A stretch of DNA of 64,000 nt from Rhodamnia argentea (lineage: Eukaryota; Streptophyta; Magnoliopsida; Myrtales; Myrtaceae). The translations under genes were made by a program, and so were the position numbers. Positions 6,130 to 59,012 of this stretch are shown here, piece by piece (the first letter of the stretch is position 1; the number at the start of each line of letters is the position of its first letter). The notes under the pieces were generated by a model. That model searched no databases, was not told where the DNA came from, and was given only the letters and a program-made list of their open reading frames with translations. The stretch is taken from positions 9,610,001 through 9,674,000 of the forward strand of contig NC_063150.1 of assembly GCF_020921035.1 (NCBI RefSeq), written 5' to 3'.

Positions 6130-7332
6130 GAGAAATTTGAATGGTTTGCGTTCACAGAGAGGACAGAGAAAATTGCTGGAAACAAAAGAGTTTGAAGTGG
6201 GAAGTTTGTGATGGTGTGAGGCGGCTGCTACGACCGCTTCGCTTCGAACGCGCAGAGAGAGAGAGAGAGCCGAATCCCTTGAACGTGCGTCTCTTCTGTT
6301 TTGTGCGTCTTCCCTCGCAAGTTGCAGGATTTGCAATGGATTTCGCATTCTGAATGATAATGAAAAGACGAAACTACTTATCAATAAATAACATGCTTTT
6401 CTAGAGTTATGTTACCTGAATATAACTTTGCTATCTTAGTTTACAATACAATAATTAACACAATGATTATTGTGAATTAAACGGGTCAATCAAGATGATG
6501 TCCATTGCAGTTCTATTCTGTCACTGTTGTTGCACCAGCACAGCATAATCCTACGCATCCTCACTTTTTCTCAGGGCTGCATCGAACTCCAGATATCAAA
6601 TTTCAAAAGTCATTGTTTTTGGTTCAACAAGAACTTCACGGTCTACACATTCGTGAATCCAGGTCTTATACAATCAGCCTGTTGCTATGCTCGACCTCAC
6701 CAAATCGTGTCCGCTCCAACACTTCGAGTCAGCAACTGCAAAAGGCTTCATCCGGAACATCTCGAGCATCTCAATCCGGGGATCAAGCGTCGCAGTAGAA
6801 AGAAGCTAGTAGATTTTCTTTCGTTAGTGAAAATGTTCCGTTAAACCGAGAGACAAGAAGTTGGCTGGGCCAAGCTTTAGCTATCAAGGAGCACACTTCA
6901 TTTTGTTTTGGTGGTGTTGCAGGACAGAGCTCCATGTATAGAACGACTTCAGGGGTATTTGCTACTAGTTTCCTTTTAATAGGAGTCCAATTTTCCGGTG
7001 ACATTCTGGATGTTCTTCGTGACGACGAGAACCATATCAGGCCATTTGGCAACTTGTGCTGGAAAACTTCACTCTAGGATAGTCCTTGTCCTGCACATTG
7101 ATGTGCAGTGCAACTAAAATCTTTACTACCATTCACTTTTTGTATTTGGCATCAAGCACCATAAACTGTTGATGCACCAACCCCATATCCTTCCAGGGAG
7201 AACACTGCCATGATTTTGTTTCGAATCAACCCAGATGCAAACGACCTCCCAATGAGCTTCTAGGAGAACTTCAGATGGATTCTGTCTTCCAATTTGGCCG
7301 AGCCATTGCTCTCAGTTGGACACACACATCAG

Positions 7333-7720
7333 TCATCTTTCACCAATTCGACTTCCAAGTCTCTGCAGCAAACGAACCGATGTCCAGTGCAATCTGCAGG
7401 TCGAATTGGAGGAGTTCCTTATCAACCCCTTTTGCTCGCAGTTGTGCGCCTTACTTTCGCCTGTCTGTTGGACCAGATAAGATATGATAAACTGAGTCAT
7501 TTGAGAGACAGTTGTACCGTCACGATTTTGCGCACTACTCGCCAATAGGCCCTGTAAGGACCAAAGCCAGTCAAACACGGCATAGAAGTTCCCAGAAACG
7601 CTGATGAGACTATTCTTGCTCTGTCCAGGAAAAACTCTATAATGGGACAGTGAAGCAATTGGTCCAGACCTAGTCTTGTAGCGATTGAAGAAGGTTCAGA
7701 TGCGTTAAATCAATCCTAAG
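7333..7720 (-). pseudogene. CYP82-like P450 relic I (exon 1 fragment)
   Basis: On the minus strand, 7625-7500 reads AFLGTSMPCLTGFGPYRAYW followed by RVVRKIVTVQLSLK and then a stop. This aligns with [20 protein letters not shown] and [10 protein letters not shown] in the intact P450 genes of this window, the helix C region with its conserved WR. Flanking sequence towards 7333 keeps only patchy resemblance. No start, heme-binding exon or splice site is found. It lies 3' of the B3 gene of unit I, the same order as the intact P450-B3 pairs further on. Confidence 0.7.
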
Positions 7721-7827
7721 ACTTTATGTGCTAATGTCCATCTTCCAAAATGATTAAGACAAAGGGAAAAACTGATCCACAATATATATTTCGGTCTTTT
7801 GCTTTTATTTTATTTATTTTTGAGTTC

Positions 7828-7886
7828 ATCGACCTCCGACCCCAACTAGTTTGGGTTGAAAGTGGTGTTGATGTTGATGTTGATCT
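7828..7886 (+). mobile_element. Probable RTE-type LINE 3' tail
   Basis: The string CCGACCCCAACTAGTTTGGG followed by a degenerate (TTGATG)n tract matches the usual 3' end of plant RTE-clade LINEs (ACCCCAA-TAGTTTGGG plus a TTG-type tail). The matching position of unit II near 14.2 kb appears to lack it, which suggests insertion after the unit duplicated. Only the tail remains; no coding part is visible. Confidence 0.45.
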
Positions 7887-8133
7887 CCTTTCCCTTGAAA
7901 CTCAAATTCGCAGCTGCAGATTTTCTGAGAATGCGTTGGAAAGATGTTATGTACCAGGAAAAAAGAGAACGTGCTATTGTCATAAAAGTACACAGTAGAA
8001 ATTCATGTACATTTGTTAAAACTCATGTACCAAGATTTGAGGAAGACGAAAACTGCCCAAACAAATTATTCTCTAACTACCAGAACATCCGAGACCCCAT
8101 CCTTTTTAGGATGTCGATTCCACTACACGCACA

Positions 8134-10178
8134 TCAAGCCTTCACGACGAAGTGATTCTTTTCTATTTTGAGGCCCCGCGGAAGAACTCTTGCTATTGTT
8201 TCACTGCATGTGTTTCCCTCTCCAAGGACAAACTCGAACACGCATTGATTGCCTAATCTCAAATTCTTCTTCCTAAACTCAATCCACCCTGAGGACAGAA
8301 AGAACCGTCCATCTTTCGTTTCTTTAATCTGCGTGGGCCACGTCCTCCCATTTTGATCCCGCACAATCATCTCCTCATCGGGATTTAGCTTTATTCGATT
8401 TGTCTTTAGGAATGGAGTAGGGATATACTGCATCAAATGTGACCAGACAAAATGGAAGGATAATCGAAGCAGCCAAATGTTCAGTAAACAAATTGCAGCA
8501 GCGAAATGTTCAATCACATGTATTGTCTCGTTCGTGTTATATTAATTAGATTTCCAAGTAATCAGTCATCTCCCGTTCTAAGTGACGATGGATTAATTGC
8601 GACAACCTCTTCCAAGCTTTTAAACCTATTTAGTGCTGCTGAAATGCCTTGCAGAGAAGCAGACTCTGTTAAACTTATCAATTAGCTGCACAAATCTAAG
8701 GAAACTATTACTCTGAGTGATTTGGTCGTGATCACACTTGTTCAAGGTCATCTAAACCGAAAGTACCTCTAGGCTTTACGAAGCTCCTACTAGTTTTTTC
8801 ATGTACCACCCATTATTCTGCTATCAACAATCCAATAAATATACGATGACCTTAAAACGGTTTTGTATGTGACGTGACTCCAAGATTAGCAGCTTAAGAT
8901 CCTGAGGTGCTCCTACGACAAACGCAAGATCTGTTAAAGGAGTATTCTACAATCAAGATATGCAGACTAACCAGGAATGACATTACTGAAACTATGGAGT
9001 ACTGAAAATTAAATAAGTCTAATGCGAAAGACTAACCATCGTTCTCATGCGATATTTCGAGATGGATGATACAAAGTGCGGATTCTTCGGCATGGCATAT
9101 GTCTCCGAGGAGCACTTGCGAACAGTTTCCCCAACAAACTCTGGTTTCGTTTTGAATTGGGAATCTCTTTGCGAAACTGTAGAAAGGAAAGCATGCAAAG
9201 GTCAGGAGGCAACACCAATATGCCAGAAAAAAAAAAAAGTAACAAGCAAGTACCATGATTTTCCATTCTCCTGATATTCAATTCCGAGAACTTCCGCTTA
9301 CAAGCCCGAACGGGCCTCCTCTGGTTCTGTTCTGTCTCATTTACTTCGTCTGCCAGCTCTTCATTCTTCATAACAGCGACTGGTCTATTGATTCTGGAAG
9401 TCAGTTCTTTCCTGCACCCATTCTTACCAAATACTTTGACGAGGAACACCGAGTCCGTATTGTATCTGAAAATGAGTAGATCAGCAAAATCTAGAGAATG
9501 ATCTATCACGAAGTCCCGCCAACCGCTCTTCATGAACAATTTATTTCCAACTTCTGCTATCCTAATTGGCCATGATCTCCCTGTAGTATCCTTGAGAACT
9601 GCATCTTTTGGCACAACTCCCTTAAAATGCTTCACGAAATCCAGCGGTATAAGCTGCAATGGAAAAATTGAATTTCCATATACCAAATCAGCAGACGATA
9701 AAAAGCAAAAACATATAAATCTCAGAACCCAGCTAAGGGCCTTTTCATCAGTGGGAGCACCCAATGCAGTTGTCTATTCTCAAATTTTCTTGCTAGTCCT
9801 GATTATGAAATTCATCAAATACCGAATGTCGCATGAAAGAATGTCCATGGGACATGATTTTACATTGGCAATTATCACATTCAAACTTTTGTACATGATG
9901 TTGAGCAATTATTTAATCTAGAATATTTCTTCCCTCGCAAAATCACTCAAAAAGGCACAACCTCTCCCACTTGATAAGGCCCCAAGCAAACTCTTCACGT
10001 ACAGTTCCCTAGGTTTCAACAAGATAAGTGGGTTATAAGAGCACACTAGGGTTTCCATTAAGCTAGTAATATCGCACTCATAAACTGTTTCCTTACAAAA
10101 TTTGTCTAATGCCCTAGAAAACATAAGAAAGGTACAGAAAGCAGGCATTCGCGAAGAAACGTGCATGTGCATGTGCAT

Positions 10179-10229
<51 letters not shown>

Positions 10230-10351
10230 AGTTGGTGAGAACTGAAGGAGGGAAGATAAACTTTGAAGAACTCGAGAGGCTCGCCGGAGGAAGAGGTCTT
10301 CCTGGGACGACGGTCGCTCATGGTTTTCCTGCTTTGCCGAGGTGGTTTCAA
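8134..10351 (-). CDS. B3-domain (REM-type) transcription factor, two B3 domains, unit I
   Basis: Seen: four exons, 10351-10229, 9653-9254, 9176-9037 and 8427-8134 (TGA), phases 0, 1, 0, giving 318 aa. The first B3 domain spans about residues 27-121: EFFKVYLPSFSSHQL is split by intron 1 from LIPLDFVKHFKGVVP, then GRSWPI, KSGWRDFV and FLVKVF. A basic linker follows (RRPVRACKRKF, residues 157-167). The second B3 domain, about 206-305, has NPHFVSSISKYRMRTM, then YIPTPFL, GRTWPTQIKE, SSGWIEF and VFEFVLGEG. Known: REM proteins are plant nuclear DNA-binding factors, many expressed in meristems or reproductive tissue. Its pseudogene copy lies at 14.65-16.93 kb, a P450 relic lies 3', and an AG microsatellite abuts the intron 1 donor. 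The donor GTCTCT is far from consensus, so the exon 1 boundary is the least certain part. Confidence 0.82.
10183..10227. repeat. (AG)n microsatellite at the 5' splice site of B3 unit I
   Basis: 45 bases of uninterrupted AG (CT on the coding strand), directly following the predicted exon 1 end, so intron 1 starts GTCTCTCT. The copy in unit II (about 16793-16811) is shorter. Confidence 0.95.
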
Positions 10352-11790
10352 TGGTGGTCGCCGTTGGGAAACAGGAGGGATGTCGAAGGTTTAGGAAGAG
10401 GGAGAAACAAAAGGAAGCCGAAACGTCTAGGAAGAACGTGGGTTTATCACCAAAAATCAGCAAAGAAGAAAGGAAAATCCCAAGATTCTTATCCTTCTTG
10501 ATTTCAAAATTAGACCTTCTTATCCGTTTTCCCTTTTTCGGTCCCAAGAACCTGCGAGATAGGTTTTGATTTATAAGCAAGTCATTAAGTCATAATTTAA
10601 TGGGAGTTTTATACTATGCAATTGCTGGCGGTAGTTCTGATATGGATTTTATCGAGGAGATGTAAATTAAGTTTCGATTAATCTTGAAACTTCTTTGCTA
10701 GTAATTTAATTCCCTAGAATGCTTTCACATAAGGTGATTTGACGGTCTCGCATCATACCATTTACTTTGCACTCAAAATTACGCGCGCTTTCCTTTTATG
10801 TTCGTGATTAGATTAGATTCTGTGTACAAGTAAGTTACGGGTAGATGAATAAATAAATTATTGAGTAAAAGACGAACCTATATTTTAATAAACTTAATTT
10901 AGAACAAACCGTGTAGAAATTAAAATATTTGAAAGGAAATGAATAAGAAAAAGGAGATAATGCAACTTACGCTGAGTTATGTAAATGAAATTCTAATTTG
11001 TTTGGAAGTTTTGAAGATCATGAACTTATCCATGCATGAAAATGCCAACATCTATGCAAAGGATAATTAAGAGCATCATAGGGGAAAAGGAGAAGTTGTT
11101 GCTCAAAGATTTGATAAGAGGTGAATTCTCAAATTTACATATTTGTGCTGCGTATAATATCTTCTAAATAGATTGTCAGAGCAACAAAAAAAAAAAAATT
11201 CGTGTAAATAGACGTCCTTTTCAGTTACGTGCGGAATAGATGTCTCTTCGGTTCATGTGTAGCGAAGTTTCTAATTTTAAGAAGATCTGTTTAGTTCTTG
11301 AGTAATGGTTCTCAAGGTTTGCTAGTTTTGAGAAGTGATCGACTGAGTGTTGTTCATATAGTGCTCATACAAATAGATTCGAGGTGATGTATATTGAGAG
11401 ACATAATTTGTAAATCTATAAAGCATCGTAGGAACTAATGAGATTTGGTAATCCGTACCTCACCTCTTATTTAATAATTTTCCCATTTTATAGAAATTGT
11501 GCAAGTCCAAAATTAGTTTGTAATTTAGTCATCTTTTCTTGTTAAGATGATATATAAATTGTCTTGGTCATTATCAAAATTCATTATCACTTTCTTAGAG
11601 TTTTTATCTCTGTTAATGTTTTTTTATTGCAAAAGACAATATTGTGTTACGTATACAACAAGTTTTACTTGGTAATTTGCTTTTGACAGTCACTTGATCC
11701 ATCGTAGGTACAAATCCATCTACTTTTCATGAGAATAAAATCCTACATTTGATATAACTCCTATCACCGGTTTTTCTTCATATATATTTG

Positions 11791-12251: not shown

Positions 12252-12289
12252 CATATATTTTTATGCCCATCATATCCTTCATCTCGTGA

Positions 12290-12720: not shown

Positions 12721-13429
12721 ATGGTTAAACCCTTGTCCTGCTCTTTAGTTATTAAGAATCAAGAATCAACTTTTAAATTGTGGGAATTGAATCGGGGAGC
12801 ATATATCCAGAGGTGGCATGTTCCCATCATCCTGTCATCGTTCGTCAAGAGTTGGATTTGCGCCTTGGGGCAATCATACACTAATCAATAAAACAAAAAC
12901 TTCAGGGACCGATGGACTTTTGTGGCTTTTGCTTCCTTTTGTTGCAAGAACACATCATAATAGCATATCCTATTCATCCTCACATTCTCCGGGCTGTATC
13001 AAACTTCCGAAGATAATGTCTTCCATTTGTGAATTCTGGTCTTATACAGTCAACCTGTCGCTATGTTCAATCTCATAAAATCATGTCCGCCCGAGCACGT
13101 CGGGACAGCAACCGCAAGAAGCTTCGTTCTGAACGTCTTGGGCATCCCAATCCGGCGACCAAGACCTCAAGAGAATGAAATTGATGCGCTATGCGAAACC
13201 AAGTCCCAGGGGTAAAAACAAGCCCATACATCTTATTTCGTTAGTGAAGTGTTCCATCAAAAGGAGAGACGAGAATTATCATGGCCAAGATTTCGTATCA
13301 AGATCATCTGAATTCAGAAGCACCAAAGGTTGTTTTAGTGCTGCAGCGGTACAGGGCTCTCTCTATAGAACGACTACACTAGTACCCATTAGTACTGAGC
13401 TTTTATTCGGCATCCATTTTTGTGCTAGC

Positions 13430-13710
13430 CAATGTCGTCGTGCAATCTGCGGGTCGAATTCAAAAGTTCCTTAACTACCTTTTGCAGTTCTACGGCTTTA
13501 CGGTGTTTTGTCGTCATCTGTTGCACCGGTTCGATATGATAAACTGTCTGTTTTGAAAACAGGTCCTATCATCACAACTTTGCGCACTTCTTGCCAGTTA
13601 GCCCCGTAAGGACCGAAGCCAGCCAAGCATGGCATAGTCATACCCAGAATAGTCCATGAGAGCATTTGCTCTATCCAAGAAAAACTTCAAAATGGGTCAG
13701 TGAAGCGCTC
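13430..13710 (-). pseudogene. CYP82-like P450 relic II
   Basis: The minus strand near 13660-13570 reads ALMDYSGYDYAMLG in one frame and then AGFGPYGANWQEVRKVVMIG in the next, matching [20 protein letters not shown] in the intact genes. There is therefore at least one frameshift inside the helix C region. Further 3', RKAVELQKVVKELLNSTRRL (about 13505-13440) may correspond to the following helices, with stops after it. No heme-binding exon is present. It sits 3' of the B3 pseudogene of unit II. Confidence 0.7.
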
Positions 13711-14320
13711 TGTGCAGACCTAGTCTTCGAGCGATTGAAAATTGGTCAATAGTCACTAGACATCGTGCCTTCAATTTTTGCAGTAAGTTCGTCCCCATCA
13801 AACAGCTGCGACGTCATCTAATAATAGGCCATCCGCCGTCGTTTTCAGACACGTTGCATGGCCTTCTTGACCTGCGTCACCATCAGGTAGGGACGGATTT
13901 AGCAAGGCCAAGCATGAGATTGAGGTTATCAGGATCTGACACAGGGCCAAAATGTATAATTTAGGTTCAGAATTAGGATTTCTGCCATAAATCAATCCTA
14001 AGACTTCATGTGCTAATGTCCATCTTCCCAAAAAAGTGATACTTTCACACTTTCCAGTAATGCAGTTCAGTTCCTCTGCCTTCTCCTCTTAATGAAATGC
14101 TCAAGTTGAAGGGCAATTGATCCGCAATGTACATTTCTACAGTCTGGATGCATCACAAGCACACAAAAATGAACAGAAAACCAGAGTTATACTTTCTGTA
14201 GTCAAACTTCCTTGCCTTTGAATCTCAAATTCGCAGATGCAGATTTTCCGAGAATGCATTGGTAATATGTCATGTAACCGGGAAAAAGGAACATATAAAT
14301 GCCGTAAAGGATTACAGTAG

Positions 14321-14462
14321 AAATTTAAGTTTCAGAACAGTTCCAGGATTCCTCAAGAACAAATGAAACAACAAATTACAACTAAGGAGCAAAAATTTAA
14401 CTTTCAGAACAGTTCCAGGATTCCTGAAGAACAAACGAAACAACAAATTACAACTAAAGAGC
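14321..14462. repeat. 72-bp tandem duplication
   Basis: Two adjacent copies (14321-14392 and 14393-14462) of a sequence starting AAATTTAA and containing TTTCAGAACAGTTCCAGGAT differ at only a few positions. This lies in the 3' flank of the B3 pseudogene and is absent from unit I, so it is recent. Confidence 0.9.
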
Positions 14463-14652
14463 TACCGCAATTGCCTCTCACAACATGAAAGCCATTGAGG
14501 CTTTATTTCGAAAATATCTAGTGTTACAATTGTTAAAAACTCTATGTACCGAGATTTGAGGAAAACGAAAGCTGCACGTTTGTTAAATCTATCAGAACAT
14601 CCGAGACGTCGTCGTTTTTTAGGATGTTCACTCCACTACACACAAATCAAGC

Positions 14653-16934
14653 CTACATGACGAAGTACTTATGATTCTTTTGTATTTTGAGGCCCAGTGG
14701 AAGGACTCCAAGGTTCATTTTGCTGCACCTGCTCCCCTCTCCAAGGACAAACTTGGGCACGCATCGGTCACCTACTCTCAAATTGTTCTTCTCCCCAAAC
14801 TCGGTCCACCCAGAGGTCGGATAGATCCTGCCGTCTTTCCTGACATTAATATGCATGGACCACGTCTTCCCATTTTGATCCCGAACAATCATCTCTTTGA
14901 GATTTAGCTTTATTCGATTTCTTCTTAGGAATAAACCTGGGATATTGCATTATATATGAGCAGAAAAACTAAGGAAAATTGGAGCTGCTACATGTTCAAT
15001 TATATGTGTATAGGATGACTACATTAGGTTTCGTGAACTATTAATTGAACTTACCAAGTAATCACTCATCTCCCTTGCTAAGTGATAGAGGATTCATTGA
15101 GAGTCAACCCTTCAAATAGTTAAAACTATTGAGCGCTGCCAAAATACCTCACAGAGAAGCAAACTCCATTAAACTTATCAATTTGCTGCTCAAATATTAT
15201 GACCGATTGGATGTGCACCACACACATCCAAAGCATTCGGTCGGGTACACACACATCCAATGTGGCTGAGATTACTTACCCAAAGTACCTCAAAGCTTTA
15301 TGACGCTTCTACAAGTTTTTGTTTGTCACCTGTTGTACTGCTATCAACAGTCCATTGAATTTTTTGACCAAAAAAAAACAGTCCATCGAATTTACAAAGA
15401 CGTTTAGTACAATTTTTGACATGACTCCAACATTAGCAACTTAAGATCCTCAGGTGTTCCTATGAGACAACCAGGGACGATATTACTGAAATTATAGAGC
15501 ACTGAAAATTAAATCAGTGTAAGGTGAGTAACGAACCATGACTTTCGGCAAACATTTGGAGATGCATGATACCAAGTTGAGGATTGTTCATCATAAACAT
15601 ATGTCTCCAAGCTGGACTTGCTAACATTTTCTCCGACGAACTCTTGTTTCTGCTTGAACAGAGAATATCAGTGAGAAACTGTCGAAAGTAGAGCATGCAA
15701 AGGACAGGAGGCAACCCAATTTCGCCAGGACAAAAAAGTAGTAACAAACAAGTACCATGATTTTCCATTCTATCAATATTTAAGTCCATAAACTTCCGCT
15801 TACAAGCCCGAACCGGCCTCCTCTGTTTCTGTTCTGCCTCGTCTGCCTGGTTTACTTCGTCTGCCAGCTCTTCCATCTTCACAGCAGCTAACTGTCTATT
15901 GACTTTGCAAGTGGCTTCTTTCCTGCACCCGTTCTTACCGAACACTTTGACAAGGAACACCGAGTCCCTACCGTATCTGAAAATTAGGAAATCTGCAAAA
16001 TCTAGAGAATGGTTGATCACGAAGTCCCGCCAACCACTCTTGATGAACAAATTATTTCCTACTTCTGCTATCCCAATTGGCCATGATCTCCCTGCAGTAT
16101 CCTTTAGAACCGCCTTTTTTGGCACGACTCCCCTCAAATGCTTCACGAAATCCGGTGGTATAAGCTGCAATTAGAAATTCCAATCCCATGGATCAAATTA
16201 ACAGATGATGGAAAGCAAAAACGTATAAAACTCAGAACCCAGATAAGAGCCTTTTCACCAGTGGGAGCACACAATGTAGTTTTATATTCTCAGATTTTGT
16301 TAGTGGTGCTCATCATGAATACCATAACATAATTATGAACGGCTTTCAAAATTCATCAAATCCCGAAAACGCTGCACAGAAGACTGTCCATAGGACATGA
16401 TTTTACATTGGCACATAACACATTAAAATTCTGTGATGTTCTCATAGGCGATTAGTTAACCTAGAATGTTTCTTCCACGCAAATTCACTCAAAAGGCACG
16501 GACAATTTCTCCCACTTGATAAGGCAATCAAGAAAACACTTCACGTACCATTCGCTAGGTTGCAAACAAGATAAGCGGAGTATCACAATCCAGTTCAAAG
16601 GCAAGCCAAAAAGAGCACGCTAGGGTTTCATCAAGCTAGTAATATTGAGTCCATGAACTGTGATCATATAAGCTTTTCTCTATCACTGTAAAAAACATAG
16701 GAAAGTTATAAAAGCCGGCATTTACGGATAGTTAGGTTCGTCCTAGATAATTCATGCCGTGAACAAACGTGCATGTCCATATGCATTCATGAGAGAGAGA
16801 GAGAGAGAGACCAGTTGGTGAGAACTGAAGGAGGGGAGATAAACTTTGAAGAACTCGAGAGGCTCGTCGGAGGAAGAGGTCTTCGCGGGACGACGGCCGT
16901 TCATCGTTTTCCTGCTTTGCCGAGGTGGTTTCAA
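14653..16934 (-). pseudogene. B3-domain pseudogene, unit II copy
   Basis: The exons correspond to those of the unit I gene: 16934-16812, 16164-15756, 15678-15537 and about 14945-14653. Exons 1 and 2 are open and keep the first B3 domain (FFKVYLPSFSSHQL, then LIPPDFVKHLRGVVP, GRSWPIGI, KSGWRDFV) and the basic linker RRPVRACKRKF. Exon 3 has an in-frame TGA at 15670-15668, four codons in, and is 2 bases longer than its partner, shifting the frame through the start of the second B3 domain. At exon 4 the acceptor CAG of unit I reads CAA with 2 bases missing, so no AG remains at that place. Exon 4 itself is still largely open (EMIVRDQNGKTW, TSGWTEFGEKN). A truncated one-domain protein ending soon after exon 2 could still be made. 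Confidence 0.85.
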
Positions 16935-17273
16935 TGGCGGTCGCTGTTGGGAAACAGGAAGGATATCGTTCGTGGTGGGTTATGAATGGAGAAAAAGGAA
17001 ACCGAACGTCTGACAAGATCGCGGGTGAAAATCATCCCTAAGATTTTCTACCTCATTCAAATTTCAAATCAGTCCTTCGGATTTGCTTTCCTTTCTGGGT
17101 GCCAAAAACCTATCGAGAGAGGATTTGGTTCAGAAGAAACAATCTTCGACATGTGATGAACAGTCGATTGCAAGTGATTTAATGACATAAATCTTAAGTT
17201 CATTGGGGAGATGTAACTTGGTTTTTTTTCTCTTATCATTTACAAGTATTCAAATAAATTTGAAAACTATTTT

Positions 17274-17512
17274 GGCTACTTTCGTTTCTCAAAAAAATGA
17301 ACAATCTAATTTTTTTTTTTTTAAACTTATCGTTTATATCGCTTACAAAAATGAATGAACAATTTTTTTTCATCATCCACAAAATTATTTAGACATAAAT
17401 TATTGCCAATGATGAAATATTTTTCATTAACTAATTATTTCAAATGACACAAACTATCTTTTTTAGGAAAATAATTTTCAAATTATTTATTTTTCGCGAA
17501 ATAGGAGAAGCC
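17274..17512. mobile_element. Small fold-back MITE
   Basis: The ends GGCTACTTTCGTTTCTC and GCGAAATAGGAGAAGCC are near inverse copies. The interior carries the AATTATTTAGACATAAA and ACTAATTATTTCAAATGA phrases shared with 17.83-18.08, 45.15-45.39 and 55.00-55.21 kb. Absent from unit I. Confidence 0.65.
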
Positions 17513-17828
17513 TCCATTAGTGGTTGAATTCTATAAAATGCTTGCCCTTGAGGCGATTCAAAGGTCTAGCATCATGTCATTGACATTACTTTTATATTCG
17601 CGGTTAGGTCGGATTTCGGTATGCAGTGAGTTACGAGTAGATGAATGAATCAATTTTTAAGTAAAAAAAGAATTGTGTACAATAATCATAATTGTTTATA
17701 AAGTTAATTTAGAACAACCCATGTAGAAGTGATAGTTTTCAATGGAATTAATAGGAGAAAGGAAATAATGCAACTTATGTTCAGTTGGGTCCATGGAAAT
17801 TTTAATTTGTTCGGAAGTGAAGGATGAT

Positions 17829-18077
17829 TAAGCTCCCTTTTGTTTTGAGGAAAACGAAGTATTTTGACAACATTTCCATAAAAATAGTTGTTTGTATCGC
17901 CTAGAAAAATAAGTAAACAAAAAATATTTTTGTCATCCTAGAAATTGTTTAGGCATAAACTGTTATTGACAATAAAAATATTTTCAATTAATTAATTATT
18001 TCAAGCGATACAAATGATCATTTTAAAAAAATATATATATTTTTAAATCATTCATTTTTTATTAAACAAGTGGAGCC
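17829..18077. mobile_element. Small fold-back MITE
   Basis: Same family as 17.27 kb. The left end is AAGCTCCCTTTTGTTTTGAG; the right end is TTTATTAAACAAGTGGAGCC. Confidence 0.65.
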
Positions 18078-18177
18078 AAAAATAGTCAACAATTGTTCTT
18101 TGGCCAAAAGTAGATATAAATTAAAAGAACCTAAAAAAGGTAGGAAAGTGAATACTCTAAACTCTTGATTCTTTTTA

Positions 18178-46586: not shown

Positions 46587-46713
46587 GATGAATGATTCTT
46601 CAAGTATAGCAACAGAGAGTTTATATGGAAAATTTTCCTTCTAAGAGTTCAGTTGCTGCTTTCCTGGGAGTCTCTAGTGAAAGAAATAGATTGTGTTGAA
46701 TTTTAAGTCCAAT

Positions 46714-46730
46714 GGACATATATATATTCA
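46714..46730 (-). promoter_or_regulatory. Possible TATA box of P450 gene D
   Basis: GAATATATATATGTCC on the minus strand lies about 130 bases before the ATG, giving a plausible short leader. A second TATA-like string (CCATATAAAC, about 46617-46627) is only some 35 bases from the ATG and less likely. Confidence 0.3.
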
Positions 46731-46795
46731 AAACGAAGTGCTCAACTCCCGGCCTTCTTCTGGAAGCTTGGTGTTGCAAAAAATAGGGGATTAAA

Positions 46796-47613
46796 CACAA
46801 TGACAAGCAAGATTTTCCAAGTCGTTGAAATGAACAGAGGAAAGTGGCTCTCCTCATTCTCTCGCCTAGGGTTTCTCGCCGCCGCCCAACCTTAGATGAT
46901 GCCCCAGTCCCTCCCCTTCTTCCTCCCAATTTATGTTCCCTGTTTGTTTCTTTATTTCTAGCTTTAGGCTTTTTCGTAGATTTCATGGAAGACGCAGTCA
47001 ACATTCTCCACGGAAATGAGCTCTGAAAATTGAAGCACGAGTACCTCAAAAGAATTTGCTCTATTAGAGTCTGCTCGCTCCAGCTCTAGGTGCTTGCTTC
47101 AGATAGTAAAGCGCTCTACAAGTCTTTGAGGTTCTTTTGCTACAGTCCGCTTATTTAAAAGTAATGTTGTGATCAACTGGTACAAGATCTAGATTTAGAT
47201 GCTCTTCTATCTTGATCTAGAGATAAATCTGGAATTTATAAGGCATTTTCTGTATTCTTTCAATTTATTGGTATTGTTGTGGTCTCTATACGGTGGTGGT
47301 GTTAGGGATACCGAAGTTAGGCACGCACCACTTTTTGGCAAAACCGTAGTTTCCGAGAGGAATTTCTCTGCGTATGCTCATCATTGATGTTGATGAGAGA
47401 TTCAGTGATCGACCACTATATGAGCTTTGATGCTATGATAAATCCATTTTTGTGGAATAGACCAGTCTTTACGAGCAATATCCTAATTCACTTTTTAAAT
47501 TTATTTGTTTTATTTGCTTTGTGGGATTTGCAGCTTTGTCTTGAAGTTATATGCTCATTTTTCATATGAAATGGAGATTTCCATTCCGACCAAAAAAAAA
47601 AGCACAATGACAA
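46796..47613 (+). mobile_element. LINE-derived retroposon with poly-A and target-site duplication
   Basis: CACAATGACAA occurs at 46796-46806 and again at 47603-47613, directly after an A tract (47592-47601), flanking a 796-base body. Near the left end is a CTCTCGCCTAGGGTTTCTCG leader of the kind seen at the 5' end of plant L1 elements, then a short MEDAVNILHGNEL frame that stops at once. No ORF1 or ORF2 proper is present, so it is internally deleted or a non-autonomous relative. A processed transcript of an unknown gene is the alternative. Confidence 0.75.
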
Positions 47614-49119
47614 AGAAAGAAAGAAAATTAATTGGGGAGAGGAGCACACGATTTCATTATAGATCATCCCGGACAACGATCACACTCAAGTAACTCAAAT
47701 ACTCTCGGTATTTATCGGCCACCAATTACATCTGATAACTCACTTAATGTTTAGCCATGGCACTTTATCATGAAATAATCCCTCAATTTCATGAAACAAT
47801 TACACAGAATTTACCACTAGATGTATTTGGTTCACAATACCATTCAAATTTTACCTTGATGTAAACATGATGAAGCCCACATTTGTGATGTTTTGTGAGA
47901 TCACTGCTAATTGTTCAAAAATTTTAAGTTATTAGATGATAAATGAGTTTAATGTCTAAATATTCTAACACTCCCCATCACGTGTAGGGCGAACTTTGGC
48001 CTAAGCTAGACCTCTTGCTGTGATATTATGTGAGATATTGTCAGACCACTACAACTGCTCTAAAAGTTTAAACTTTTAGATAAATACTTGATTTAATATT
48101 TAAAATTATAATAATTCATATCGAGTACAGCATACCCACGGCTACACTTACGAGAAAATTTTCCAAAAAGTTTCAAACTTATTGCAGTTTTGCCAATTAT
48201 ATTCTCAACATTTCAATTTTATTAATTGAGTCGCAAATCTTTTCACAATTTGCCAATTGAGTCAATCCTATCAATTTTACCTAAAATTACTAAGGGTGAC
48301 GCCGGCCGTCTAACATGACACAATTGGCACTAATATGGATAATTTTTAACAATATTTTATTATTTTTATTATTATTTCTGATTTTTTTTTCTTTCCTTTT
48401 TTGCCCTTTCTTCTTCCTTTTACTGGTGGCTGACTATGGCCATGTGAGCTGGCCTTGCCTAGGCGAGGGTTAGCCTTGCCCGAGCTCGCTCGAACGTGCC
48501 TTACCTATGGCAGGCGATAGTGACGACGAGCTTCGCCCGGTCGAGGCTAGCCCACACGGCCATGCTACCAGCCAAAAAAAAAAAAAAGAAAGGGAAAAAA
48601 AATCCAAAATAAAAAGAAAAACCAGAAAAAATATTAAATTATTTTTAAAAATTGTTCACGTAGGACAACCGGCATCCACATCAATGAAATTTGGTTGAGA
48701 GTGAACGGATAAATTCAATTGACAAAATTAAAAGATTTAGAACTTAATTGGAAAAAGTACAATATATTTATAATTTTTTTTTTGGACAATTCTTCCCTAC
48801 ACTTACAGCGCGTTTAAAACATTCACATGGCACTATTTTTTGGTTTTTGGTCGGGACATGGCACTAACTTAAACAGCCCGTAAAGTGGTTGTCTTTAAAA
48901 TATTAGAAAGCAAAACTTAGTCCGCTCCAACTTAAATTAGAAAAGTTTATATCTCAGTATTATTCCGAAACTAAGTCCTGTTTGGACTTCCCTTTACAAT
49001 TTCCAAATTCGGATGTCCATCGAATAAAGGTCTAACATCTCAAATAGGAAATTTCCCATGTGAATTCGGATTTTTATGTACGGGCTCGAACTTAAAAAAT
49101 ATGCTAACATTACGGGTAT
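47614..49119. other. Repeat-rich spacer without genes
   Basis: 47.69-47.76 kb matches 19.96-20.03 kb (ACTCAAATACTCTCGGTATT and CCAATTACATCTGATAA), a piece of an unclassified repeat. 48.15-48.79 kb is a fold-back repeat with CCAATTGAGTC/CAATTGACAAAATT arms around a GC-rich core and purine tracts. No coding sequence. Confidence 0.5.
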
Positions 49120-49905
49120 TTGGTGAGGGTGAGCAAATGGGACCAACCAAACCGGGAAACGCTCGGACAGGACTGGACCGGTGGCCCGGTTCCCGATTCC
49201 AGAGGTTGGCAATCCGGTTCTCAATCCTTCAAATTGGAACTGGTGACCAAGCGGTCCGGTTCTCGATTCCAGGGGTATAGGACCGGATCAGTCCGATCGA
49301 TTTTTTTGGTCCACCTAGTTGGCTTTTCTCTTTACCTGAAAGAGAAAGCAGATACCGTATGATCGATTCTATGTTCTTTTTCATTGGTATACCAGTATCA
49401 TTGTTTCTCTCTCCAAGATTAGCTTTTGTTTATGGTAGACATACATATGTGTAGGATTCTCATGTACCTTATTTGACAGGCTTCCTGAGAATTCTTTATC
49501 GCAAGCGAAACTATGTTGGGGGCACCGGGCATGAGTGTCAACTGTTTCTTCAGGAAACAGTGCTTATATGTGCCTTGTTGGATGTACTCGAGTGCACTTT
49601 TCCACCACTCCAAAGGGAATGTCCTATGTCACTTCCAGTTTTAAGCTGGATTGCCTGATGACTCTTGAATATGGAAGGCAGCGTTATAGCGTTATCGTGT
49701 TACAAAGGTTGTCCGAGACAAGGCCCAGAGCACAATTTGTAGCAATGGATCCTAGATATTGCTGCATCTTACCAATTCTATTAAACCACCGGGAACCGGA
49801 CCAGACCGACTGGTCCACGGTTCTAAAAATTGAAAATCGGGACCACCGGTCCGGTTCTCGATTCTTGAGGGGAACTGGACTGGACCGGGAACCGCGCACC
49901 CTTAG
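49120..49905. mobile_element. GGTCCGG-rich inverted-repeat element
   Basis: The left arm 49120-49310 starts GGTGAGGGTGAGC and is full of CCGGTTC-CGATTCC phrases. The right arm 49785-49903 reads GGGACCACCGGTCCGGTTCT and ends GGGAACCGCGCACCC. The arms are inverse to each other, with about 470 bases between them. It sits at the right breakpoint of the interval that interrupts P450 D/A flank homology. Same family as 56.56-56.95 and 62.78-62.88 kb. Confidence 0.7.
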
Positions 49906-50821: not shown

Positions 50822-51973
50822 CTAAAGCATCACATTTGTGTGAACGGATACCTTGAACACAATTTCTTCCCCATCAATCAACTCGAACAAACAGGCGTCT
50901 CCAGAGAGCAGATTATTGCTCTTTGCAAAAGCAGTCCAACCTTCATAGAATCCTCCCTGGAAAGATGGAAACACACGCAACCTCACCAGCCATGAACGAT
51001 CTGCATACTGAAGCTCCGCGGTTTGCTTCCCAGTTCCGATGTAATCCTTAATGAATTGCCAAGGCATGCGCTGAAGAAAATCAAAGAGAATTTATCTTAA
51101 TCCACAATCACAATGACATAAAGTGAAGTCTTTGAATCTAGGGAAGATGCAAACTCATGACCCTTTCTACTAGAAAATTCGGGTTATACTTAAAATACCT
51201 TCTTCCTAAAATCTAGCAGATAAATGAATACTGCAGAATATATAAGAATGGCTTATCAAAATTCATGGTAGTTAGATAGGGTCCTGAACCTACCAAATAT
51301 TGGAGAGAATTCGATGTGATAACCACATTGAAGCAAGCATGAACCACTCCATTCACATCCATGTAAATCAGAGTCTCCTCTGCATCCTTGTCAGGCTCTG
51401 GTACGGAATCGGTATCTTCATGCTTGAGATTCGGTCCGAATGAACGAAACACGCCACGCTCTTCGCCGCCCACGTCTGCTGTAGGATTATTTGCCTCAAT
51501 TAGAGCAGACTCGCCGCGTTTGCGCTTCCTAGCGAACGGCGGGACCTCCTTCTCGCACGCGTGCAATCCGTACGCCCTCACGTAGAATCTGGAGGCTCCA
51601 TTGAACTTGAAAACCAGGAAGTCGCCGAACTGCAACGAATTGTCCTGAGCAAATGCTTTCCAACCCCTCGTGAAGAACAAGCCATCGTCGACCTTCTCAA
51701 TGTCCACGTGCCAAGATCTTCGGGCGCAATTCGTTAGCTTGAATCTTTTGGGAATTATGAGTCCAGGAAGATGATTGACGACAAATGCAGGGGGGATTCG
51801 CTGCCAAAATTTTAAATTTTGCAGGAATTGTAGTGAATTCGTTAGCAAATAAGGAGATTAATACCGCAAAAAAAAAAAACCGAGAGCGCAAAACTCACCA
51901 ACCGGGTGTTGAAGTCATCATGAATAAGAACCTTGAAGAATCTAGTTCTCGAGCTCCTTCTTTTGCCGTCCAT
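50822..51973 (-). CDS. B3-domain (REM-type) transcription factor, two B3 domains
   Basis: Seen: three exons, 51973-51899, 51800-51294 and 51070-50822, all phase 0, 276 aa. The first B3 domain (residues 11-105) has TRFFKVLIHDDFNTRL split by intron 1 from RIPPAFVVNHLPGL, then RSWHVDI, TRGWKAFAQDNSLQFGDFL and FYVRAYG. A basic/acidic linker carries FARKRKRGES (likely nuclear localisation signal) and an acidic EDTDSVPEPDKDAEET stretch. The second B3 domain (about 178-270) has HACFNVVITSNSLQYL, RMPWQFIKDYIG, SWLVRL, YEGWTAFAKSNNLLSGDACL and FKVSVH. Known: REM-family nuclear DNA-binding protein. Neighbours: it lies upstream of P450 gene D; a decayed copy of its second domain with its 3' flank lies upstream of gene A. 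No lesion seen. Confidence 0.88.
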
Positions 51974-52439: not shown

Positions 52440-52600
52440 CTCGCAGACAGAGGCTTTGGGGACCATGAGTTTCAAATTGATGTGCTGATAGCTCCGGTTT
52501 GAGAACCATTGTCCCTCAGCAAAATTGAACCACCCGGCAGAGATTTTGCCCTCATCTACTATCCTTAGGGAGCAGGAGCTGCTTCTGCATATGGTCCCTT
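52440..52600 (-). pseudogene. B3-domain relic
   Basis: Minus-strand EGKISAGWFNFAEGQWFSNR and INLKLMVPKAS match KGKISAGWFNFARGNAL and LNLDLMVLRVS of domain 3 in the 38.14-41.30 kb gene, with the GDICIFEL part lost. The sequence 3' of it (to about 52.36 kb) also matches 38.05-38.13 kb. No other exon remains, so this is the end of a vanished three-domain B3 gene copy. Confidence 0.75.
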
Positions 52601-52786
52601 TAGCCTTTTCAAGTTTTAAGCTCTAGTGGCTGTTCACCTTCAGTGCATCTCTCAAACAAGTGGGCGGGTAAAAAATGGTTCGACTCATATTAATCTATTT
52701 TTATACAATACAAATCTAGCGACTCATACTCGACTCGACCCATATTACTAAAACACTTATATATTCAATCCTATATAAATGGAAAT

Positions 52787-53484
52787 GGAAAAAGACATTA
52801 AGAGTACCAATATTTGTGTACGGCGCCTATTTTCGTGCCGATTTTTTTTTATCACTTAAGTGCCAAATCGGAAAAAAATGATCACTTAAGTGCCAATTCC
52901 GGCAAAAAACGATCACCGTAGTGTCAATTCCGTCCAAACAATACACGCGGCTTTTTATTAATTTTTTAATATTATGTGGATTTTTTTTAAAAAAACCAGT
53001 CCACATGGCATCCACGTGGCAATTTAAAAAAAAAAATCAGTCCATGTGGATGCCACGAGTAATATCTTTCTACAAAATAAGCTAAAATATTTTTAAAAAA
53101 TTAACTAAATAAGTAAAAAAAAAAAAAAGGAAATTCATCAGTTCCAGCAGTGAGGGCTTGGAAGCCCTCACCACACCCGCCCACCATCACCAGCCATTCC
53201 AAGCCCTAGTCGCTGCAATATAGATTTTCTTTTTTTTCTTTTTTTTGGTTTCTTATCTTATTTTTTATTTTTTTATTTTTTTTATTTTTGAATTTTTTTT
53301 GTTGCTGACTTGAAAGCTCCGGCAAGCCACGTAGATGCCACATCAGATTTTCGGTGAAACTCACCGGAGTTGGCACCGAAATAACTGTTTTTCAAAAAAA
53401 ATGGCAATGAAGTAATCCAAAAAAAATATTGGCACTAAAGTGAGCTCCGTACACAAATATTAGCACTTCTAATGTCCTTTTGCC
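52787..53484. mobile_element. MITE with about 34-bp terminal inverted repeats
   Basis: The left end GACATTAAGAGTACCAATAT continues TTGTGTACGG. The right end CCGTACACAAATATTAGCAC continues TTCTAATGTCC. The two are inverse with a few mismatches. The interior carries CACTTAAGTGCCAA repeats and CATGTGGCATCCACGTGG, plus T-rich tracts. No coding capacity. Confidence 0.8.
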
Positions 53485-53539
53485 AAAAATAAATTGTTTC
53501 TCATAAGTTTCTACTTTTCTTTTCTTTTTCTTTTTTTTA

Positions 53540-54370
53540 AAGGAAATGGTTGGGTTTCCTTCTTCTTTCACTGGCCGCTAACTAGCCACAATTAGAGGTG
53601 TCAAATGGATAGATCGAGTCAAAATCCACCATACGGCTACATGCAGTGACGTTCCACCTCTTGAACAGTTTTTATATTTTCTAAATAGTATTTTTCTTTC
53701 TTTCTTTTACTTGCAAAAAATAAAAGTTAAAAAAATATAAACTAATATACATGAGGCCCGTGGCCCCAAGCCAAGTCCAACCCAACTAATAATTTAATGC
53801 ATCGAAAGTGGGTTCAACTGTGTAACCCATTTTTGAGCCATCTCATTCTACTTAATTTTTTTAGACTCATTCTTATTGAACCCTCTAAAAGCTCACAACC
53901 CATATACAACTCATTTGCAAAAAATATGAATTAGAAAATGATCATGGGCCCATATTGACTGTTCTACTGATGATTGACTGCCGCCGATCGGCTAGACCTC
54001 AGCGAGCATGAGGCTCGCTCGAGACTAGCGAGGCTCTAGCTCACCTGTGGACGTCACTGGCCAGCCACAATAGAGGAATAAGGAAAAAGACAAAGAAAGA
54101 ATAAAATAACATAATAAAATAAAAATTATTAAGAATACTTTGCAGCCTCGCTGGTTTTCGTAGAAGAAAAAAGAAAAATAAATTAAATTAATATAAATAT
54201 AAATAAAATATTCAGAAAATTAAAAATTCAGAAAACTTGTTTATAAGCCATTTAAGACCCATTAAATTGTTAAAGTAGCCCATTTATGGCCCACTTAAGA
54301 TTATTTTTAAAAATAAATACAACACATTTATGATTCCTACTATTAAATATTATATAGTTAATATACGTGT
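53540..54370. repeat. Dispersed repeat with ACCCATTT-type phrases
   Basis: It starts near AGAGGTGTCAAATGGATAG and ends with CCCATTTATGGCCCACTTAA and GGATCCATTTTGCC-like strings that are roughly inverse. The core is GC-rich (GAGGCTCGCTCGAGACTAGC). The same phrases occur at 1-480. Confidence 0.5.
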
Positions 54371-55751
54371 TTTAGATCCATTTTGCCGCCCCTACCCTTC
54401 AACACTCTAGTCCTTCCACGATTCCAATACTTTGTTCACCTTTCGTGGAAAGCACTACCATCCAAGCCTTAACAAGTCCGGTTGCACAACTTGGTCATCT
54501 TCTACACAGGTCCATCCTGGTTTAGCCTATTATAACGGCCAATACTTTTATTCACCTGTTGTAGAAAGCACCACCAGCCTTTAGATGAGCCTGCTGGGAC
54601 TCAATCTTTATGTTGTCCTGTGCATCTACAAAGTTTACTTCGGACTTAAACAACCAATTGCACACATTAAAAGCCTTTATTGATTTGTTATTTTCGAGAC
54701 ATCATGGAGAATTTTCCCAACAATCTATCATTTTTTTTATGGTGTTAAACTAATCTCTATAAGTCAATATGCATATGCTTTCACGCAGCAAATGACATGA
54801 GATTTAGATGTGCGTGTAATTTAAAATGAGATTTATTTATCATGCCAACACAATTTGAGTTCGAGCATCACAAGCAAGCATTGTAATCTCCAAATTATAA
54901 GGTATTCAATGAATATTACAGGCGATACATGTAAAAGCAATATGAGCAAAAATATGAGGGTTTGTGCCAGCTCTTACTTCGACAAAAATTATTTAGGCTA
55001 CATTTGTTTCACAAATAAAAATAATTTAAAAAATATTTTCATAAAAACAATCGCTTGTATCAATTGAAATAATTTATCGATAAAAAGCATTTTCATTATT
55101 GACAACTATTTATATTTCATTCATTCATTTTTGTAATCGATACAAATGATCTTTTTCAGGAAAATGTTATCCAAATCATTCATTTTTCACGAAATAATCA
55201 AAGCCTCAGTTACATGAGAATCAGGTGAGAGTAGTATCTCATTATGGGACATAAATGATATTCTTAAATGTTGTCTAGCATTTTTAAGGATTAATCAGAG
55301 TCACTCATTCTGCATGATTCAACTTATTCCCTAAATGCATCTGCCACCTTAGAATTACTCAAAAGTTAACTGCTCTTATAGAAACTGTAGATACAGTGCC
55401 TTCCGCAGAGTGACAAACTATGCTTACGCACACACTGCACCTGCACGAAAACTTTCCTGCATCTGCAGGTTAATATATCTTCCCAGTTATGCAGACACGA
55501 AACACAGATGCATATGCGTATACCTTCCCCACCTTTCTGTTGAATTCAGAAGAGAGCCAAGTGAGGAACATTCAACTTCATTCATTCATTCATAGCAGCT
55601 GGTCAGTCAAAAGTCAAAACAGAGAAAACATAAGACTGAAAAACGTATGATACTAGGGAGGAAATGGGGCCTTGATACTGCAAAAAGTTTCAGACCATTC
55701 CCATATTTTGCTGAGAACGGGAGGTGATTTCGAGGTCTGAGTAGGGTCAAG
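54371..55751. other. Gene-free spacer with one MITE
   Basis: No gene is recognised. A small fold-back MITE of the 17.27 kb family occupies 54996-55205 (ends GGCTACATTTGTTTCAC and ACGAAATAATCAAAGCC). 55.6-55.75 kb may be 3' untranslated region of the next B3 gene. Confidence 0.5.
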
Positions 55752-58700
55752 TTAAAGGTTGATAGGATCGACGCGTGATAGAGATTGGATCATTTTTTTC
55801 GCTCGAAAAAGACCATGGCAAAAGGCTTTTGGCAAACCTTTCACCTTGATGACAAAATTGTCAATCTCTGTTGCTTGGACCTTTAGCTCATCAAGAGTAC
55901 TCGTGACCGGACAGATAGCAGGCTCATCCTCCTCAGCATCACTTATCAAGTTAGGCTCCTCTTGGGTCGTAGCCTTTGTTTTCTTTGGTGGGGTTCCCTC
56001 CACTGGTTTTTCCTTCTGTGGCGTTTGCTTCTGCATACTCATTGATTCCTCCTGTTTGCGCTTCCTGCTGCCATCTGCTTCGCTCCCTGTCATTCTGTTC
56101 CCCAACAGAGTTCTCGCTGCAACCTCATCTTCATCTGTCGGTCTCAGGGAGTAAAGAAGTCATGATCAAAATCATAAAAACAAAGTTTAAGATGAATATT
56201 ATGCGCCACTTACCGCGTTTGCCACAAGGGCACCAACGTGCATCTATATCGGCTCTGAAAATGACTATCCTGAAGGAAACTTTGTCGGTCCTTACCAATT
56301 CGAACGCACAAACGTCACCAACCCTCAGAGTATTGTCTCGTGCAAATTCTTTCCAACCTCGACTGATCCTCACTTGTGCTTTTCCGTTGTACATCCCGAA
56401 ACAGTATCGCCCATTCCACATTCTCCTGTTTGAATCGTAGAGATGCACATCAAGTTTTCTATTCACGTTAGGTACGTGTGTCGTAAAAAACCGACCGGGC
56501 GCATTCTGCACAAAAAAGAAGAACAGAATCTCAGTTAGATGTATGTAAGTGTAACTATCGGCAAGGGTGAGCAACACAGACCGATCGAATCGGAAACTGT
56601 CAAGACCGGACCGAACGAGCCGGTTGGGTCCAGTGTCGGGGGCGCTAGTCTAGTTCCCCGTTCTACAAAATTGGAAATGGACCAGGCTGATTATTTTATT
56701 TTATTTTATTTATTATTTCTTAAACGTAAACCTAAGAATTCATCGATTATTTTTTTTATTTATTGAACACAAACCTAATTTTAATTAAGGATATTAAAAT
56801 TAAAATCTATATTCCTCACCCTTACTAATAATTCATTGGTTCTATTGAACCGCTCGGGAGCCAAACCGCAACGTTCCGAGAAACCGAGAACTGGTCCTTC
56901 CAATTCGGTACCCGATTCCCGAACGGGACCAGATTGAAAACCTATCACCCCTAACTATAAGTTTAGAATATACTTTCTCCTATAGGGAAATTCATCGATG
57001 TTAGATTGCCCAACTTCTTATAGCTTACAAGAGACGTTGACCACTATCTCAAAACTCTCACGAAAATATTGAAATCTAATTCTCTGAAAATTGATTTGAT
57101 TTCCCGAGAATTGGACCCACCACACCTTTTATAACATTTTATAGCACAAATATGTTTAGATTAGAGCTTTATTTGGTTTATTTCTTACCAAATTAAATCT
57201 AGGATGAAGGAAGGATGGTTTCATGAGAACCAAGAAGAATGGATTTGTGGATCGAAATGAAGCCGCTCTTTCCAGCACTTCACGCCCTTTATTACAGCCG
57301 GTCAGAGGTTGGACCCTCCTCCAAAACCCAGATTCAACGCATGAATTATTGGCACAAGAAATGCTCCCACCACCTTTTGCCACAAAGAGAATTTCCGACA
57401 TTTAGTACATAACTTCAGGCCAAAGGGGGAAAAAATTAAATAGAAAGCATAAAAACATCAATCAGATGTAGAACACGACTGAACCTGCCTAAAGTTCTTG
57501 GGTCAATCTCTTTCTTTTTTTGTCGTAACGTTTTAATACGCATACAATAAAACAAAGCCACATCCTGTGGTTCGCTTAATCGAGAGAAGAATGATGCTAG
57601 ACAAACTAAAATTAGTTTGTAAAATTGATGGGTCAACGACGTGGCAAATTGTAGATGGAGATAAAAATAAGTTAGTAATGTGCAATAGTCAATAGTATAG
57701 TCTGCCACAAAAATGCAAGAAAAAGAAATTAAAGTCTTCCCCCTGCTATTTCCTTTTTCTCTTCATCAACCATCATCATTCTTCCAACTTAAACTAGCCA
57801 AAGTATCATGTCAATGAAATTGATTTGATAAATATTTTATAACTGCCTTTGAACCGACGGTTCCACCGTAAAATCGAGAACTGAACAAGTTCTAAGTTAA
57901 AGCAGATTCAGGACACCGAACCGGTTCTGCCTAGAACTGGAGTTCGAACGGTCGGTACAAATCAATCTGGTTCTTTCCTAGCTTGAATCGGTTCCGGTCG
58001 CGAACATGGAAAATGGGACAAAAAGCTTTTATATTCTTTTCTGATACCTAAGAGATGTCATATGATAATTGTTTTTTGTGCAGGACAATTAGCAAGAAAA
58101 AATATAATATATTCTAATAGAGAGGGCAAATAGTCAAGTTGTCAATTCATACCTGCGAGTTCCTCTTCCTTCGACCTTCCTCTTATCTCAACCTGAGACC
58201 TGTCTCTGCAAATCGAAGAAACGCCCGAGCTACCTCCAACTCCATTAATGGCTTCCTCGTTCGCATGCTCATCACCAGAGGCTTGTGAGCTTGTTTTCTT
58301 CTTCTTCTTCTTCGAAAGCAGAGATAATGCCGGCGGTGATGGCAGGTCCTCGAATCCTTCTCTGACCAACACCACGTCCCCTTCGTCTTCAGCCTCCACC
58401 TTTGGCGACAAAAGATGCTTGCCGCCACCGCCATTTTCGGAGACGATGGGGTAGTCGATCTCCGTTGCGCTCTTGTCGAATATGACCACCTGAAACACGG
58501 AGTTTCCTTCATATCTGAACACTAGGAAGTGGCCATGTTCGATCGAGTAGCGCTCCGCGAAGTTCGGCCAATTCCGTCGAAGCCAAACACCGTCGTTCGT
58601 CCGCAACAGCTCCACTTCCCAGGCGTCGCCGTTGGCCAGCTTGAGGAAGACCGAGTCAGACAGATTGCTCCCGTGTTTCCTCATGAATTTCTTTGGAATT

Positions 58701-59012
58701 CCCTGTTGCATGAAGAACACGAGAAGAGAAGTAGCCATATCTGACGCAAAACTGACGCAAATATATAAAAACAAAATGTGGTACAAGCATGAAGTAGCCA
58801 TATCTGTTATCAACCGAAAACTTTTTGTGCGAGAATTTCGTGAAAATCTCTCAAAGAGAAGAGTGAATTCACAAGCTTAGATTCCAGAAGAAACCACATC
58901 AAAAACACAAAAACAGAGGGAGCGACGTTACGAGCCGGCCATTTTGGATGGAATCAGAGAGAACTATCTTGAAAAAATGGGGAGCTTCCGACTCAGAAAC
59001 TCCGCCTCCCAT
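55752..59012 (-). CDS. B3-domain (REM-type) transcription factor, two B3 domains and long basic tail
   Basis: Seen: five exons, 59012-58932, 58702-58153, 57373-57189, 56505-56214 and 56134-55752 (TAA), phases 0, 1, 0, 1, giving 496 aa. Domain 1 (residues 11-105) is HFFKIVLSDSIQNGRL plus GIPKKFMRKHGSNL, WEVELL, RRNWPNFAERYSIEHGHFL and FQVVIF. A linker of about 110 residues has a KKKKKK run and acidic patches. Domain 2 (about 252-358) is NPFFLVLMKPSFLHPRFNL plus NAPGRFFTTHVPN, SRGWKEFARDNTLRVGDVC and SFRIVIF. The tail (368-496) contains RKRKQEES and PPKKTKATTQEE, candidate nuclear localisation signals, and no third B3 domain. It is paralogous to domains 1-2 of the 38.14-41.30 kb gene. Two introns carry GGTCCGG-family or related insertions without harm to coding. 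Intact. Confidence 0.88.
56559..56951. mobile_element. GGTCCGG-family element in a B3 intron
   Basis: The left end has AAGGGTGAGCAAC and the right end CCTATCACCCC, inverse to each other. TAACTAT flanks both sides (56552-56558 and 56952-56958), a likely target-site duplication of 7-8 bases. It lies in intron 3 of the 55.75-59.01 kb B3 gene. Confidence 0.7.
57850..58015. repeat. Degenerate GGTTC/GAACC repeat in a B3 intron
   Basis: GAACCGACGGTTCCACCG, CACCGAACCGGTTCTGCC and GAATCGGTTCCGGTCGCGAA resemble the arms of the GGTCCGG elements. No clear ends. It lies in intron 2 of the B3 gene. Confidence 0.5.

Follow-up and report, generated by a model that had tools for sequence, protein, structure and literature searches.

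P450 and B3 genes alternate along the window

We analysed a 64,000-nucleotide stretch of Rhodamnia argentea DNA (C1:9,610,001-9,674,000, hereafter the window; C1, C2 and so on denote contigs) in which genes for cytochrome P450 enzymes are interspersed with genes for B3-domain transcription factors, and searched the whole genome (346.7 Mb, 74 contigs) for related loci. Matches from tblastn and Pfam revealed that exons of the two families alternate along the minus strand, as an earlier note on this DNA had described. P450 was the one enzyme family among the subset of window frames scanned; ten further reading frames had no Pfam match below 0.05, and an Rfam search of the window found no match.

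Four P450 genes, named A to D, could be built from splice signals as open three-exon models. All four carry the motif FGAGRRSC, which we take to be the heme-binding motif. The submitted stretches of A and C matched Pfam p450, identifying them as cytochrome P450 sequences, and the best PDB matches of P450 D exon 1 were two plant diterpene P450s. We refer to these genes as CYP82-like, a name we assume here; the cutoff for CYP82 is at least 40% identity to a named member of that family. Synonymous divergence (Ks) in the six pairwise comparisons of A-D was 0.35-0.45, with ratios of nonsynonymous to synonymous divergence (Ka/Ks) of 0.17-0.38.

The B3 sequences comprise two-domain and three-domain genes. 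The two-domain gene beside P450 D has a 5' exon near 52.0 kb and one PDB match, At1g16640 (1yel; phmmer 2.8e-8), presumably a REM family member; this gene, the one B3 gene compared with a REM protein, is accordingly of REM type. Further right, three B3 pieces (52.5, 56.3 and 58.7 kb) form a single three-domain gene collinear with that at 38.1-41.3 kb, its third domain (52.5 kb) being degenerate. The "B3 relic" (52.5 kb) and "B3" (56-58.7 kb) listed separately in the earlier note are thus parts of one gene.

Table 1 Positions of P450 and B3 features in the window
Feature	Position	Strand	Description
Composite unit I	6648..11201	-	P450 relic, spacer and two-domain B3 gene; collinear with unit II
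P450 relic I	7500..7631	-	Part of exon 1; tblastn 39-45% to P450 A-D
B3 I	8185..9659	-	Two B3-domain exons; Pfam B3 1e-13, 1.1e-11
Composite unit II	13024..19030	-	P450 relic, spacer and two-domain B3; collinear with unit I
P450 relic II	13567..13983	-	Parts of exon 1; tblastn; contains stops
B3 II	14746..16170	-	Two B3-domain exons; Pfam B3 1.5e-12, 1.9e-11
P450 A	21324..25289	-	Exons 25289-24348, 22159-21883, 21712-21324; 535 aa, open; Pfam p450 on exon 1
P450 A upstream spacer with B3 fragment	25300..26300	-	Matches D spacer 46600-46774, 49904-50444 and B3 exon 50848-51015
P450 B	26870..29825	-	521 aa, open; P450-only copy
P450 C	32312..35076	-	525 aa, open; P450-only copy
Three-domain B3 gene, copy 1	38140..41290	-	Pfam B3; collinear with copy 2
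P450 D	42923..46586	-	Exons 46586-45645, 44142-43866, 43281-42923; 525 aa, open
Extra sequence in D spacer	46775..49903		About 3.1 kb; absent from A spacer
Two-domain REM-type B3 gene beside P450 D	50843..51857	-	Pfam B3 3.9e-14, 7.8e-10; open frames
Three-domain B3 gene, copy 2	52460..59010	-	Five collinear matches to copy 1

P450, spacer and B3 sequence were copied together at least twice

At the left of the array, the collinearity of units I and II runs through the P450 relics, the spacers and both B3 exons. Matching pieces are 72-82% identical (96% in a single 45-bp piece); the longest covers 2597 bp at 72.5% identity. Among 19 P450s compared, relic I scored best against P450 A-D. The exons of B3 I are open, with a further 5' exon near 10.3 kb. 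The second B3-domain exon starts at CAG in B3 I and at CAA in B3 II, an altered splice-acceptor site, and B3 II is probably degenerate. Ka/Ks between B3 I and II was 0.22-0.54.

A second shared spacer joins P450 A and P450 D. Positions 25459-26072 upstream of A match 49904-50444 upstream of D over 618 bp at 71% identity (E 6e-90), a B3 fragment at 26129-26300 matches 50848-51015 in the B3 gene beside D (E 8e-25), and pieces of introns are shared as well. The extra sequence in the D spacer was considered as a clean transposon and rejected, with no clear target-site duplication and no terminal repeat found. Both spacer matches had been proposed in the earlier note, and both held. Since the E-values of these matches exclude chance, joint copying of a P450 and a B3 gene took place on at least two occasions. 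Dates within the units agree: the P450 A-D Ks stands against a Kimura two-parameter distance (K2P) of 0.25-0.34 for the A/D spacer, and for units I and II a Ks of 0.30-0.33 in the first B3-domain exon stands against a non-coding K2P of 0.20-0.34. Between units I/II and A-D, DNA comparison found no spacer match, only repeats and roughly 50-bp stretches of P450 sequence; the two sets are related at the protein level.

The rest of the array has a different structure. The match between P450 B and the A spacer is limited to 54 bp, and P450 C shares just the gene plus 18 bp before its start, without a spacer match to either A or D; neither is therefore borne out as a copy of a P450-B3 block. The two three-domain genes differ by a Ks of 0.71 (core of the first B3 domain), 0.94 (exon of that domain) and 1.46 (second B3 domain), or 0.99 for the first-domain core and second domain pooled. 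Being well above the Ks of P450 A-D, these values indicate that the three-domain genes are older duplicates. We considered whether one large block of P450, two-domain B3 and three-domain B3 genes had been duplicated once (21.3-41.3 versus 42.9-59.0 kb), with B and C arising later. The gene order is compatible with such an event and the three-domain genes are collinear paralogues, but their Ks exceeds both the Ks of the P450s and the K2P of the A/D spacer, and we rejected this one-block model as very unlikely.

Homology through both genes and the spacer, the mark of composite multi-family tandem duplication, was thus found for I/II and A/D and not for B, C or the three-domain genes, so this process is not the source of every unit in the array. 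What stands of the earlier proposal, that a composite block was copied several times and that an enzyme and a transcription-factor gene moved as one unit, is joint movement on at least these two occasions; the array as a whole is not one repeated block.

The same linkage recurs at three loci of close P450 relatives

A genome search with the P450 D exon-1 protein gave 128 matches, with 126 of 186 candidates scored. Scores for B3 cover 150 of 469 candidates in the main scan, which leaves the absence of B3 genes elsewhere uncertain. Leaving the window aside, the closest P450 loci among the matches listed are C2:17.27-17.30, C11:20.36, C7:24.95 and C2:0.64-0.67 Mb. We inspected gene order around three of these four (both C2 loci and C11), and in all three one or more B3 genes lie upstream of the P450 relatives, on the same strand and 2-47 kb away.

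The three loci differ in their make-up. At C2:0.64-0.67 there are five P450s, and two same-strand two-domain B3 genes lie upstream of them, at a distance of 2.1 kb to the last P450 and of 0.8 kb to P450 remnants. At C11, a single P450 lies 8.3 kb from same-strand B3 sequences upstream of it (four two-domain genes and one fragment), and an additional opposite-strand B3 match is downstream at 20.365. At C2:17.3, there are four P450 copies (exon 1 of one was not found) and, 47 kb upstream, a B3 gene in which three domains were matched. At C2:0.64 and C11, the P450 and B3 families have each expanded separately. The B3 fragment at C11:20.3464 shares 87% identity with the B3 gene at C3:24.43 and adjoins an arm of an inverted 470-bp pair (94%; C11:20.334/20.346 Mb), which suggests recent dispersal.

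P450 identity between loci was 44-55% (59 pairs), and in the P450 tree A-D formed one clade with support 100. B3 similarity led back to the same loci: outside the window, B3 II matched best at C2:0.673 (43%), C2:17.35 (38%), C7:29.33 (35%), C11:20.35 (31%) and C2:0.677 (34%), and the 51-kb gene at C6:11.06 and 11.05 and then at the C2 loci (36-37%). A tree of 25 first domains was split, with support 65, into 13 and 12 genes. The 13-gene side holds the window genes I, II and 51 kb together with three genes from C2, four from C11, two from C6 and C7:29.33, with supports of 20-87 at nodes joining different loci. The 12-gene side includes the three-domain window genes and genes from C5 and C9.

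The closest relatives of the three-domain genes outside the window are in arrays on C5 (at most 55%), followed by C1:9.679 (49%) and the C9 genes (54%). The B3 genes on C5 and C9 have no listed P450 match within 60 kb. The C1 relative is a further minus-strand B3 gene at C1:9.677-9.679 Mb, 3-5 kb right of the window and nearest to the three-domain genes. The B3 arrays on C5 are very large (14.68-15.32 and 28.43-30.09 Mb), and several hits on one strand recur with the same scores, in reverse order, on the other, a pattern that points to either an inverted duplication or a duplicate made in assembly.

P450-B3 proximity follows P450 similarity

For a proximity test, the 128 P450 matches were clustered and compared with B3 matches pooled from several searches, the C5 arrays being entered as whole ranges; the 60-kb threshold was set after the 47-kb case was known. 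Four of 47 P450 clusters had a listed B3 match within 60 kb, namely the window, C2 twice and C11, and they rank 1, 2, 3 and 5 by similarity. Among the 46 clusters outside the window the three rank 1, 2 and 4, a result equalled by 2 of 15,180 possible triples (1.3e-4). At 30 kb, two of 46 remain (ranks 2 and 4), equalled by 6 of 1,035 pairs. In a set of close relatives (C2 twice, C11 and C7:22.08), three of four have a B3 neighbour (7e-5), and with C7:24.95 and C1:5.29 added three of six do (3.5e-4); both sets were picked after the matches had been seen.

Several results weigh against an old linkage that was copied at the window. If rank is ignored, three of 46 clusters within 60 kb is not significant (P 0.12), nor does the signal strengthen at 10 kb (two of 46, P 0.18) or 200 kb (three of 46, P 0.43). 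The linkage at C2:17.3 spans 47 kb, and none of the listed B3 matches is near the P450 relatives at C7:22.08, C7:24.95 and C1:5.29. Two of the six loci in the 13-gene B3 group (C6:11.05-11.06 and C7:29.33) lack a P450 match within 60 kb. The P450 tree unites C1, both C2 loci, C11 and C7:22.08 with support 73, and its internal order has support 32. Beyond the P450 and B3 families, the loci were not found to have any gene in common, and RUS (PF04884), which lies at the edge of the window, had no match on C2 or C11; for this reason we rejected a whole-genome-duplication origin traced through that flanking gene. Within the window, the trees do not show A and D as sisters: the A-D quartet is nearly star-like, AB|CD having an ultrafast bootstrap value of 73 and, with relatives added, (C,D) one of 64.

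Local tandem duplication could by itself have copied chance neighbours, the B3 genes near other P450 loci being coincidental in two families that both form many arrays. The non-significant test without rank and the 47-kb distance fit this explanation, as does the fact that at neither C2 locus does a B3 match fall between P450s. It does not predict that the clusters with B3 neighbours should be among those most similar to the window P450s, that strand and order should agree at three of three loci, or that B3 similarity should rank the same loci highly, and we regard it as unlikely. Because B3 neighbours recur at C2 (twice) and C11, the P450-B3 linkage is probably older than the local array.

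Partner loss suggests passive co-duplication

The four composite pairs in the window have had different fates. Pair I has a P450 relic and open B3 exons, pair II a P450 relic and a B3 gene with a changed acceptor, pair A an open P450 and a B3 fragment, and pair D is open on both sides. With one of four pairs open on both sides, it seems unlikely that selection has acted to keep both partners together, and the loss of partners one by one makes co-duplication look like passive hitch-hiking of neighbours.

We also considered a functional module, in which the REM protein controls the adjacent P450 and selection keeps the pair together. Recurrent linkage in constant order and strand would suit such a module, as would Ka/Ks below 1 for P450 A-D and for B3 I/II. 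Against it, at least one partner has been lost in three of four window pairs, P450 B and C have no paired B3, and the families expanded independently at C2:0.64 and C11. We therefore consider a selected module highly improbable, and the data suggest passive co-duplication as the best account.

Taken together, we think it likely that an old linkage of REM-type B3 and P450 genes was copied in tandem at the window and that partners were then lost passively. A REM-type B3 gene would have become linked upstream of a CYP82-like P450 before the C1, C2 (two) and C11 loci diverged. The linked pair would then have been copied in tandem at the window locus, probably through unequal crossing-over, with one composite duplication giving rise to units I and II and another to A and D, the spacers being carried along. 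In this history P450 B and C count as P450-only copies, with a second, three-domain B3 lineage interspersed. Partners would subsequently have been lost singly, as passively hitch-hiking neighbours. The shared spacers, the recurrence of the linkage, and its strand and order are the observations on which this history builds.

Comparison with known gene pairs and arrays

Metabolic gene pairs and arrays of pairs, such as TPS-CYP and EAS-EAH, are described in the excerpted account of PMC9298681, which also cites ancient TPS-CYP blocks in eudicots. As in these systems, two unrelated genes at the window occur and multiply as a pair; the published pairs in that excerpt join enzyme to enzyme, whereas the window pair has a B3 member, hence its interest. 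Tandem duplications of REM B3 genes are described in Arabidopsis, rice and poplar (PMC2688026), and the window genes resemble them in variable B3-domain number and tandem expansion. They differ in being interleaved with P450 genes, which the portion of that account on REM arrays does not mention. Tandem CYP82 copies also occur in Tripterygium (11 CYP82D genes in 133 kb; PMC9936527) and common bean (10 CYP82C-like models; PMC6835575), and the excerpts describing these arrays mention no B3 gene.

In Arabidopsis, excerpts of two papers identify REM34 as AT4G31610 (PMC10267284) and CYP82C4 as AT4G31940 (PMC10896297). These locus numbers are 330 apart, a lead from numbering alone that hints at a shared chromosome 4 neighbourhood and an old linkage. 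Our literature search found no paper naming both At4g31940 and At4g31610, and none combining CYP82, REM and tandem as whole words. An ancient enzyme-regulator module of REM and CYP82-like genes in fixed order and orientation (REM upstream), predating the split between Arabidopsis and the window lineage and repeatedly copied as a unit, seems quite unlikely to us. A P450-B3 pair at four loci in fixed order nevertheless offers a case for asking whether linkage preserves regulation or neighbours are merely carried along, a question that published plant genomes and RNA-seq can address.

Flanking gene and repeat elements

The minus-strand gene at 4865-6411, on the window's left edge, belongs to the RUS family (UVB_sens_prot); one stretch of its match contains an in-frame stop, possibly an intron. 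On C9, RUS-family exons at the contig start (0.6-3.1 kb) score the same as, or close to, those at 8.514-8.517 Mb, and the two sets may reflect an assembly fragment that is present twice.

Four intergenic elements (11790-12251, 18178-18696, 41682-42196 and 60677-62383) are inverted repeats that share terminal sequence, their ends being of the GGGTTAATACC type. The 18.2-kb element is flanked by a perfect 9-bp target-site duplication, and at the 11.8-kb element 8 of 9 bases match; a duplication of this length is what we would expect of Mutator-like miniature inverted-repeat transposable elements, the class to which we presume they belong. We rejected these repeats as drivers of the duplications: the 11.8- and 18.2-kb elements occupy different aligned places in units I and II and, given their own target-site duplications, look like separate insertions.

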